Origin: Halosolutus amylolyticus
GTDB taxonomy: Archaea > Halobacteriota > Halobacteria > Halobacteriales > Natrialbaceae
Length of the DNA stretch: 64,000 bases
NCBI RefSeq assembly: GCF_023566055.1
Contig: NZ_JALIQP010000004.1
Coordinates: forward strand, 372,001 to 436,000
Direction of reading: 5' to 3'
In this document: piece after piece, positions 23,825-40,063 of the stretch
How positions within the stretch are numbered: the stretch's first letter is position 1
Layout: each line of letters starts with the position of its first letter
Position numbers and translations under genes: made by a program
The notes under the pieces: model-generated
Database searches by the model: none
What the model saw: only the letters and a program-made list of their open reading frames with translations
What the model was told of the DNA's origin: nothing

Positions 23825-23899
23825 GCTCCGTTGGTGTAGTCCGGCCAATCATTTCGGCCTTTCGAGCCGATGACCTGGGTTCAAATCCCAGACGGAGCA
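23825..23899 (+). tRNA. tRNA-Glu (UUC)
   Basis: A 75-nt cloverleaf. Acceptor GCTCCGT pairs with ACGGAGC, discriminator A. The anticodon stem TCGGC/GCCGA encloses loop CTTTCGA with anticodon TTC. The T-arm is CTGGG-TTCAAAT-CCCAG. CCA is not encoded. A TATA-like TTTTTACT lies about 30 bp upstream. It is followed by units that copy its 3' arm. Confidence 0.95.
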
Positions 23900-24005
23900 C
23901 TTCTTCGCGAACTACTTCGTGAGCGAAGAATGCGACCCTGGATTTGAAGTAGAGAAACGCGAGCGATAGCGACCGTTGCCCCAGAGTTCGAACCCAAGAC
24001 GGCGC
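23900..24005 (+). repeat. tRNA-Glu tail unit (two hairpins ending in a tRNA 3'-arm copy)
   Basis: Directly after the tRNA: a hairpin with arms TTCTTCGC/GCGAAGAA (about 23902-23930), then TGGATTTGAAG, an inverted copy of the T-arm. A GAGCGATAGCGACCG spacer follows, and then a diverged direct copy of the tRNA 3' arm at 23986-24005 (GTTCGAACCCAAGACGGCGC against GTTCAAATCCCAGACGGAGC in the tRNA). The copy is followed by a T-run. The design equals that of the units after tRNA-Ser. Confidence 0.7.
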
Positions 24006-24082
24006 GTTTTTCGACGGGTAAACTCGCGAGTCGCAACTGTGGGGCAGGGTCCGATGCCGCAATACGCGAGCGATAACTCGTC

Positions 24083-24406
24083 TCACTCGAGTTTTCGGAA
24101 GCAGTTGTGACAGAACGACGCGACCGAATCGTTTTCCGTGGCGCATACACCACACTGGCCGTCACGAGTCGTCGATGACCGCGACTCGGACGGGGGCGCA
24201 AAGAGGTTTTTCCGCGGGTCGGTGTACGCGTCGACGACGTCGCTCCACGTGACCGCCGGATCAGTATCAGTGTACCCTGCGCGGGTTCTCGTGCGTGAAA
24301 GCAGCGAACTGCCTTGCATGCGGAGAAGCCCGTGCCAGAGTCCGAAGAAAAAGAGCGACGGGAGAAGGCAGAGCGAAAGGACTGCCCCAACGAGGACGAG
24401 GCTCAT
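24083..24406 (-). CDS. Small membrane protein with C-terminal zinc ribbon
   Basis: A 107-residue protein. An N-terminal hydrophobic segment (VLVGAVLSLCLLPSLFFFGL) serves as anchor, a linker of about 50 polar residues follows, and the C-terminal ribbon is CGVCATENDSVASFCHNCFR. Such anchor-plus-ribbon proteins occur in haloarchaea without a known role. The ATG at 24406 has a TATA-like TTATGG about 27 bp upstream. It lies between two tRNA-Glu-derived repeats (23900-24005 and 24518-24627), as if it were carried by a small element inserted at the tRNA. Its codons are less GC-rich than those of the flanking genes. Confidence 0.65.
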   Translation of the reverse strand: MSLVLVGAVLSLCLLPSLFFFGLWHGLLRMQGSSLLSRTRTRAGYTDTDPAVTWSDVVDAYTDPRKNLFAPPSESRSSTTRDGQCGVCATENDSVASFCHNCFRKLE

Positions 24407-24517
24407 ACAGGTCGGTTCGTCTCACTTACCATAATCGCACTCGTGAAATCGTTCGCGAGTAATATACGTTCCCCAGCGATCACCGCTGGTCGGTCTCCAG
24501 TTCGAATCCGATACGAC

Positions 24518-24627
24518 CGGCCGTTCGAGCCGATGACCTGGAATTTGAAGTAGAGAAGTCCCAGCCCTGGGCGCGACCGAATCGAACGACCGGGGACGTC
24601 TTTGCGTAGTTCAACTCCGGACGGAGC
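24518..24627 (+). repeat. Split copy of the tRNA-Glu 3' half
   Basis: 24518-24541 matches tRNA-Glu 23855-23878 (anticodon loop to T-stem) with one mismatch. 24609-24627 matches the T-loop to acceptor end (23879-23898) with a few changes. Between them lie 67 bp that start AATTTGAAGTAGAGAAG and end GTCTTTGCGTA, a fold-back carrying an inverted T-arm. No 5' half is present, so this is not a functional tRNA. It lies about 85 bp before the permease gene. Confidence 0.75.
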
Positions 24628-24711
24628 GTTTTGCTACGGTCGACGCCCCGAAGCTGTCTCCGGGGGAGAACTTTTGTCGATCGAACACGTGCGGGAAGAT
24701 GGCACAGACCA

Positions 24712-32452: not shown

Positions 32453-32537
32453 GCCGAGATAGCCTAGCCCGGCCAAGGCGGCAGATTCGAAATCTGCTGT
32501 CCTCACGGACTCGGGAGTTCAAATCTCCCTCTCGGCG
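32453..32537 (+). tRNA. tRNA-Ser (CGA)
   Basis: An 85-nt class II tRNA. Acceptor GCCGAGA pairs with TCTCGGC, discriminator G. Anticodon stem GCAGA/TCTGC encloses loop TTCGAAA with anticodon CGA. A long variable arm (TGTCCTCACGGACT region) and T-arm GGGAG-TTCAAAT-CTCCC follow. CCA is not encoded. A TATA-like TAAAAACA lies about 27 bp upstream. A tandem array follows immediately. Confidence 0.95.
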
Positions 32538-32831
32538 CTTCTACGGCGACCAACAATGGCGAGCGCCGCATAGCGGCGCGAGTCACTCGGTCGCCGCGAA
32601 CGGTGACGGAGATTTGAACGAGAGAAGACGTAGCGCGACCGCAGGGAGCGACCGTCTTCGCGTTGTTCAAATCTCCCTCTCGGCGCTTTTCCAGCAACAA
32701 TTCGATGAGCGCCGCACAGCGGCGCGAATCATTTCGTTGCTGGAAAACGACGTCGGGGATTTGAATGAGACCGAGGTTCTGCGAACGCAGTGAGCAGGTT
32801 CTCGGGCGTAGTTCAACTCTCCCTCTCGGCG
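32538..32831 (+). repeat. Tandem tRNA-Ser tail array (two full units)
   Basis: Two units of 148 bp (32538-32685) and 146 bp (32686-32831). Each holds hairpin 1, with a core GAGCGCCGC-AYA-GCGGCGCGA (32561-32581; 32707-32727) and longer outer arms such as TTTTCCAGCAAC/GTTGCTGGAAAA. Each then has an inverted T-arm (GGAGATTTGAAC or GGGGATTTGAAT), a spacer, and a direct copy of the tRNA 3' arm (32665-32685 identical over 21 nt to 32517-32537; 32811-32831 with one change). Confidence 0.85.
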
Positions 32832-39833: not shown

Positions 39834-40063
39834 GAGTGATGAACTGCGACTACGTTCGTCGCGGAATTTCGCGCCCAGCCGGGTTGCCCCGACTTCCTCT
39901 ATCCTCGTCCGGCGTTGAGAACGAATCTCGTGCCATTCTATCTCGTCCTATCGAAGTGGCCCGTCTTAAGTTCGCCGGTCACGGTACCATCTGCCCACCC
40001 GTCGCCGCGATCGGCGGGCGACCCGAACACCCTTTCCAGTGCCCGTGGTAGCGGGGAGCGAGT

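Follow-up and report, generated by a model that had tools for sequence, protein, structure and literature searches.

Hairpin arrays behind haloarchaeal tRNA genes carry arms that follow the adjoining tRNA and an exchangeable hairpin module

The stretch of DNA analysed here (the window, 64,000 nucleotides) covers positions 372001-436000 of contig 4 in a haloarchaeal genome of 4.59 Mb. Among 18 named relatives of the adjoining phosphoenolpyruvate carboxylase, 17 lie at 84-88% and the last at 77%; most come from genera which we take to be Natrialbaceae, and by this sequence likeness the genome is predicted to lie near that family. Only two tRNA genes occur within the window, tRNA-Glu(UUC) and tRNA-Ser(CGA). 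Both are followed by a tail composed of hairpins and partial copies of the tRNA 3′ end. A unit starts at the 3′ arm of the tRNA (P, plus orientation) and comprises hairpin 1, with a variable stem and a GA-rich loop, an inverted arm (minus), hairpin 2 and the next direct arm (D, plus). Units often stand in tandem, from none to at least four per tRNA, and a final direct 3′ arm closes the array. In the following, G000 is the source genome, G703 and G704 are congeners, and L numbers designate single loci. The two tails are composed as follows.

23825-23899, plus strand: tRNA-Glu(UUC), the host; its 3′ arm (P) is 23879-23899
23901-23930, plus strand: hairpin 1 of the Glu unit, TTCTTCGC/GCGAAGAA; orthologous hairpin in G703
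23937-23949, plus strand: inverted Glu T arm, CCTGGATTTGAAG; 10/13 against the exact inverted arm, one base short
23950-23985, plus strand: Glu hairpin 2 module
23986-24006, plus strand: direct copy of the Glu 3′ arm (D), 16/21
24007-24040, plus strand: decayed hairpin 1 of a following unit; the same stretch lies 3′ of D in G703 and G704
24518-24628, plus strand: partial tRNA-Glu copy (24518-24541), inverted loop, hairpin-2 module and direct arm (24609-24628)
32453-32537, plus strand: tRNA-Ser(CGA), the host; its 3′ arm is 32517-32537
32538-32606, plus strand: hairpin 1 of Ser unit 1
32607-32619, plus strand: inverted arm of Ser unit 1, 12/13
32620-32664, plus strand: hairpin 2 of Ser unit 1
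32665-32685, plus strand: first direct Ser arm copy, 21/21
32686-32753, plus strand: hairpin 1 of Ser unit 2, orthologous in G704
32754-32766, plus strand: inverted arm of Ser unit 2, 10/13
32767-32810, plus strand: hairpin 2 of Ser unit 2, CCGAGGTTC type; another type in G704
32811-32831, plus strand: second direct Ser arm copy, 20/21

The original prediction placed a hairpin, an inverted T arm, a spacer and a direct copy of the 3′ arm after tRNA-Glu, and all these parts are present, the spacer being hairpin 2. It also gave the Glu tail the layout and spacing of the Ser units. The order of the parts is indeed shared, but the arm-to-arm distance is 107 in the Glu tail and 148 and 146 in the Ser tail. 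At least 16/21 identities to the Glu arm were reached in 1/2000 shuffles and in 4/1911 random stretches of the window; in its tRNA-specific stem part the direct copy scores 9/12, against 8 for the best other host arm, and taken alone it is evidence of modest weight. The orthologous tail of G704 has a perfect direct copy (21/21) and that of G703 has hairpin 1 in common, so the Glu tail can be regarded as a decayed true member of the family. Its fold is more stable than those of all 200 shuffles (z -3.3), and that of the Ser tail reaches z -4.9.

G704 lacks about 0.6 kb (24007-24636) that separates the direct Glu arm from the conserved flank. This stretch has a small minus-strand ORF (24083-24406) with a weak DUF7577 match, and it ends in a tRNA-Glu 3′ half whose T loop is interrupted by a hairpin-2 module. 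It may be an intermediate of tail formation. Elsewhere in the window, a leuA-Halobacteria RNA motif (RF03001, 70 bits) lies on the minus strand at 39861-39913.

Host matching was examined genome-wide. Downstream of all 46 tRNA genes of the source genome, we searched within 400 nt for a copy of the gene's own 21-nt 3′ arm with at least 16/21 identities. Such a copy was found behind 24 genes, or 23 after exclusion of the tandem tRNA-Asp, which is a full tRNA gene. In the mononucleotide shuffle control (60 shuffles per tRNA) the maxima were 13-15, except for Tyr, where 17 equals the tRNA's own score. In the tRNA-specific stem part, no other arm scores as well as that of the adjoining host in 20 of the 23 tails, and three (Arg-CCG, Thr-TGT, Tyr) are ties. 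Several tails contain more than one unit, and in a parse of 24 tails two (Cys and the tandem Asp) proved to be false units. The other half of the 46 genes has no own-arm copy, for instance Ser-GCT, Gln-CTG, Pro-GGG and the intron-bearing Met-CAT, which means that the tail is not a trait of every tRNA gene.

Host matching was also followed at a single base. The search pattern used for the order and the phylum required both arms but left the base opposite tRNA position 57 free on each side. In a set of 76 units, which lean to intact ones since both arms were demanded and which retain at least two doubtful parses (Leu-GAG of G000, Gly-GCC of G704), an A in the host is accompanied by T in the inverted arm in 46/54 cases and a G by C in 22/22. 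Read as host, inverted arm and direct arm, the combinations are A,T,A (42), G,C,G (22), A,C,A (5), A,T,G (4), A,C,G (2) and A,G,G (1). The departures (inverted C or direct G) all fall on A57 hosts, 12/54 against 0/22 on G57 hosts. They look like the outcome of a G-to-A change in the tRNA genes with which the copies had yet to catch up.

A further sample was drawn without reference to the arms, by a hairpin-2 core of 26 fixed bases which occurs in 44/293 genomes of the order. Thirty loci were fetched and contain 32 copies. All but one of these (31) follow a sense tRNA, 30 of them at no more than 400 nt, and the hosts represent nine amino-acid classes. With L307 left out of the host-fit test (its fetched stretch has no tRNA), each arm was compared with 21 distinct host arms, and for 28/31 direct arms the own host gave the best fit (two ties). 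For the inverted arm the score is 9.19 with its own host and 7.48 after shuffling of hosts. None of 1000 label shuffles reaches either result. Host matching of the arms is thus strongly supported, and the claim that the tRNA-derived part follows the local tRNA stands. A fixed Ser-type unit dragging its tRNA end along was rejected, as the arms follow each host, and no Ser-type arm was seen behind a non-Ser tRNA. The tail itself is not general among tRNA genes, about half of which lack it, an outcome which had been named beforehand as counting against host matching.

The architecture was studied in sets of up to 143 units. Again these counts lean to intact units, and units with the CCGAGGTTC type of hairpin 2 are over-represented in the 143-unit, arm-extent and hairpin-similarity sets because they were fetched by the hairpin-2 core search. 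At the deciles sampled, the units measure 81-223 nt, and they contain no gene. The direct arm is 21/21 in 84/143 units, and decay is further advanced in the inverted arms. Of the cases in which P differs from D, 13 have an inverted arm that agrees with P, eight one that agrees with D and five one that agrees with neither. The inverted arm matches its host well over the T loop and T stem; over the acceptor part the match is weak but significant (3.56 for the own host against 3.28 for host shuffles, z 4.6, n=140). Plus-strand tRNA sequence upstream of the T stem is absent from the units (z 0.7). The arms therefore alternate in orientation (plus, minus, plus) with a hairpin at each turn. By the same measure, a truncated tandem tRNA copy was rejected as the source of the inverted arm in ordinary tails; at 24518-24628 of the window such a copy may be the origin.

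The units also carry short motifs. GTAG or GTGG stands at the 3′ junction, between hairpin 2 and the direct arm, in 82/143 units, and GTAG at the 5′ junction in 23/143. Mini-hairpins of the form GANC-loop-GNGA, with two facing GA steps, number 185 in the tRNA sense and 13 antisense in the 143 units. In the Leu-GAG tails (L052, L316) a longer conserved stretch, GATGCxGGTGA...GACATCACCCACGC, takes the place of hairpin 1. It is common to two distant genera, was co-duplicated with the arm in L316, and is perhaps a small RNA.

Tails are widespread in the order. The strict pattern of inverted arm, hairpin and direct arm occurs in 372/392 Halobacteriales genomes and 89/95 genera, with no match in the backward control. 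The phylum search gave 78/81 inside the order and 43/311 outside, with a backward control of 12; outside Halobacteriales the signature is near background, and a rare tail may occur there. The outside matches have an AT-rich look among those listed. All 11 exact inverted/direct matches in the source genome are tRNA tails in sense, one of them displaced by 2.6 kb. The hairpin modules matched only at tRNA tails in 778 kb of G000, and within these 778 kb a general genome-wide palindrome is rejected. Searches of viral contigs, phages and plasmids returned only tail-like or tRNA-linked matches, including a putative one on a Natronorubrum plasmid, or none, and within that scope revealed no virus or plasmid carrier of hairpin 2. 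Word searches of open PubMed Central papers brought up no account of these tails; subscription papers lie beyond that scope, and novelty is not proven.

Comparison of orthologous tRNAs in three congeners (44/45 tRNAs kept in each) shows how the arrays change. At Val-TAC, hairpin 1 is kept in two congeners and the hairpin-2 types differ; the same is seen in unit 2 of Ser-CGA. In Ser-TGA hairpin 1 is the same, but G000 has G at host base 57 and C in the inverted arm where G704 has A and T; D keeps G. In Arg-CCT, D of G704 equals P of G000, and P and the inverted arm of G704 carry A and T, which fits either displacement of an old arm or a coordinated change. Together with the base-57 tracking, the changes in Ser-TGA and Arg-CCT are compatible with a joint change of the inverted arms, and Arg-CCT also with arm displacement.

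Unit number varies as well. At the carboxylase/tRNA-Ser locus (10/18 loci are uninformative, with no sense tRNA-Ser in the stretch), Natrinema pallidum, N. gari and Halopiger have no unit, Natrialba swarupiae and N. thermotolerans have one, N. zhouii, Natronococcus pandeyae and a MAG have two, and Natronococcus sp. A-GB7 has at least three. Units are also gained and lost between congeners. A sense tRNA was called in 18 of the 20 stretches used for comparisons within arrays, L314 and L317 having arm copies only. L309 contains three identical 111-bp units, which demonstrates tandem duplication, and L313 and L315 combine near-identical hairpin 1 and arm with different hairpin 2 inside one array, which demonstrates module exchange. 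In the Arg-GCG tails (L044, L180, L206), an extra unit of about 100 bp stands next to the tRNA in G703 and G704 and is absent in G000. Its arms come from the acceptor part only and its mini-hairpin is antisense; it is perhaps an inverted unit.

Across genomes the two hairpins behave differently. Hairpin 2 falls into at least six types; those six distinguished in the 143 units (14 untyped) each occur behind 9 to 17 anticodons. Similarity of hairpin 1 is 0.534 for the same anticodon against 0.422, while that of hairpin 2 hardly follows the anticodon (0.526 against 0.510). Hairpin 2 is therefore an exchangeable module common to many tRNAs, and hairpin 1 and the arms remain with their tRNA and are duplicated together. 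The original prediction, in which the unit takes on the sequence of its host, is thus true of the arms and does not apply to hairpin 2.

Do the tails act as RNA or as DNA? Tails transcribed with the pre-tRNA might be selected as terminators, processing signals or small RNAs, with arms that follow the host in order to pair with it. Their sense placement behind tRNAs, the stable folds of the Ser and Glu tails, the conserved one-sided orientation of the mini-hairpins and the order-wide occurrence would all suit such a role. Selection for pairing of the transcribed strand should, however, produce a tRNA-like excess of G.T among isolated mismatches. Tail stems have no such excess (G.T 20 and A.C 22 in hairpin 1, 16 and 39 in hairpin 2, 36 and 61 in total), whereas the acceptor and T stems of the tRNAs of the three congeners have 63 G.T and 7 A.C. 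Sense folds are nonetheless more stable than antisense folds in 50/71 and 48/76 units. About half of the tRNAs do without a tail, and one locus has none, one, two or at least three units in related genera. A scan of nine sources against Rfam gave only tRNA and leuA-Halobacteria at gathering scores, tRNA being the sole family matched in the scanned tail loci, and no known RNA family accounts for the tails in these sources. Taken together, we consider functional RNA tails quite unlikely. Our reading is instead that the tails are palindromic cassette arrays at the DNA level, made out of the neighbouring tRNA end, kept homogenised with it and carrying an exchangeable hairpin.

Mobile elements that target tRNA genes also leave an intact tRNA 3′ arm with a second copy downstream, as described in the available parts of PMC8371274 and PMC4383910. 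The tails could be minimal att elements, gene-less and moved by a tyrosine recombinase supplied in trans, in which the replacement arm P would be attL, the displaced old arm D attR, as in tRNA islands, and the hairpins recombinase sites. At the congener loci listed, upstream synteny often stops right at the 3′ end of the tRNA, as expected where elements integrate. At Arg-CCT, the identity of the G704 D with the G000 P looks like displacement of the old arm by a new one, and the extra proximal Arg-GCG unit has clean ends in both G703 and G704. Archaeal integrases favour tRNA 3′ ends and a XerA binds stem-loops, according to the sections available of PMC8371274. A regenerated tRNA with a displaced 3′ fragment is shared with tRNA-integrating islands, but the integrase gene such islands carry is absent from the tails, the only integrase found belonging to a separate element. 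The tails add an inverted arm and two hairpins to the island plan and form tandem units of about 110-150 bp that lack cargo.

This separate element, behind tRNA-Pro-TGG (L226 17270-19960, contig 1), shows what integration looks like in the same genome. It is inserted at the acceptor end of tRNA-Pro. Besides a truncated tyrosine integrase (PF02899, E 1.3e-6) it encodes two archaeal pilin-like proteins and a DUF7563 protein. Its acceptor repeat is 13 bp long, without an inverted arm, and the old tail was displaced by 2.6 kb as a passenger. The haloarchaeal SNJ2 integrase likewise uses a 13-14-bp att site at a tRNA end (PMC8371274, in part). Such a clear case speaks against att elements as the source of the tails. 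So do the absence of genes from the units, the dozens of different arms which one specificity would have to serve, and the replacement of hairpin 2 alone between fixed arms, a poor fit to att exchange. We judge the att reading unlikely. The arm of tRNA-Ala-GGC (L244 52-1738, contig 3) is repeated, T stem included, 1.67 kb downstream. No hairpin unit accompanies this repeat, which is probably the end of another small integrated element. Small zinc-finger frames resembling DUF7563 lie shortly behind several tail-less tRNA genes (L226, L046, L209, L182 and others); the Pfam match concerns L226, the other flanks being judged by eye.

Short palindromes moved as single-stranded DNA offer another comparison. 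REP- or PATE-like hairpins could be mobilised by a Y1 transposase (IS200/IS605 or RAYT) with the T loop as target. The GTAG or GTGG at the 3′ junction resembles the GTAG tag of REPs, which like the hairpins are short palindromes of many types, as far as PMC3733652 was available; the word 'Halo' is absent from that paper. One-sided orientation suits strand-specific insertion, and SMR-A repeats of Haloquadratum insert in palindromes (PMC3119063, in part). PF01797, though, is found in only 17/40 genomes of the order (a loose count for incomplete genomes) and is missing from 99%-complete single-contig genomes with tails (16 matches in G023, seven in G024), which makes a Y1 transposase unlikely to be required. 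IS605-type insertion creates no target duplication (Table 4 of PMC3119063), whereas D duplicates 21 nt. The restriction of the modules to tRNAs in 778 kb is also unfavourable. REPs are scattered between genes (PMC3733652), and the tail modules stand within tRNA-arm frames. Mobilisation by Y1 is in our view quite unlikely as well.

The SMR-A class of Haloquadratum walsbyi is nevertheless the closest haloarchaeal precedent. In the accessible text of PMC3119063 it is gene-less, about 110 bp long, bounded by terminal inverted repeats and associated with palindromes. It sits in PATEs and IS605-type elements with no target duplication; its movement is termed enigmatic, and different repeats at one place are called 'SwitchRepeats'. 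The tails have inverted terminal repeats too, with hairpin 2 lying between an inverted arm and a direct one, but these arms are copied from the host tRNA. Two defining features of the class fail here: instead of lying in near-terminal PATE/IS605 palindromes, 31/32 copies of the hairpin-2 core chosen without arms lie behind a tRNA, at its 3′ end, and a 21-nt arm copy closes each unit.

In Escherichia coli, rtT repeats stand in tandem behind tyrT and each contains the 3′ end of the tRNA; they form an Rfam family. We know of no host-tracked inverted arm in rtT, and no paper on these repeats was found in the open PubMed Central literature. They share tandem repetition with a tRNA 3′ end, yet occur behind one tRNA, while tails occur order-wide behind many, and the rtT family gave no match to tails in the Rfam scan of the nine sources.

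The reading we prefer, and hold tentatively, is that the Glu tail represents a single unit in a palindromic cassette array anchored at a tRNA, with arm copying, homogenisation and hairpin-2 exchange taking place at the DNA level. It builds on what the comparisons establish, namely host tracking, the plus-minus-plus order, tandem duplication, hairpin-2 exchange and turnover between congeners. An arm would arise when the tRNA 3′ end is duplicated locally and copied by fold-back, with template switching at the hairpins. Its likeness to the host would then be kept up by template-switch correction and by recombination between the inverted and direct copies, which lie close together. Haloarchaea are polyploid, and this may assist homogenisation. 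Most tRNAs have the T-loop sequence GATTYGAA...TTCRAATC in common, and this would serve as a portable inverted-repeat frame through which hairpin 2 could spread between tRNA genes by recombination or insertion. The array would act as DNA and would need no RNA product or coding function. As described in the available parts of PMC8604942 and PMC8794818, template switching at quasipalindromes homogenises the arms of close inverted repeats and makes hairpins in one step, which fits arm tracking. It is a mutational process and not a repeat family, and those parts describe no tRNA-anchored arrays.

Several observations stand against this cassette-array reading. The 185:13 bias of the mini-hairpins is unpredicted by a strand-symmetric DNA process, and inversion of the spacer, which template switching should yield as a by-product, is almost never seen (Arg-GCG is the one candidate). 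The agreement of the inverted arm with P or D indicates no clear direction of correction. Exchange of hairpin 2 needs transfer between loci which share only about 8-13 bp, and no carrier was found in the viral, phage and plasmid searches. Perfect direct arms beside decayed inverted arms are unexplained by one homogenising process alone, and the loci examined contain no birth event at base resolution.

Half of the tRNA genes in the source genome, and tRNA genes in nearly every Halobacteriales genome sampled, are followed by repeats whose ends are written from the tRNA. Conceivably, though we advance this with greater reserve than the cassette-array reading, the tails represent an order-wide, previously unnamed class of elements: gene-less hairpin cassettes found only at tRNA 3′ ends, with flanks rebuilt from the occupied tRNA, stacked in arrays and trading the central hairpin. 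Such tRNA-templated self-retargeting might be driven by an enzyme or by replication alone. For annotators, the tails call for caution in that partial tRNA copies may be misread as provirus ends. They are also relevant to the question of why breakpoints in haloarchaeal genomes fall at tRNA 3′ ends. If the proposed process is right, the tails would constitute a natural record of template switching or recombination at essential genes across an order, in which the making, correction and exchange of inverted repeats could be followed in many natural replicates.
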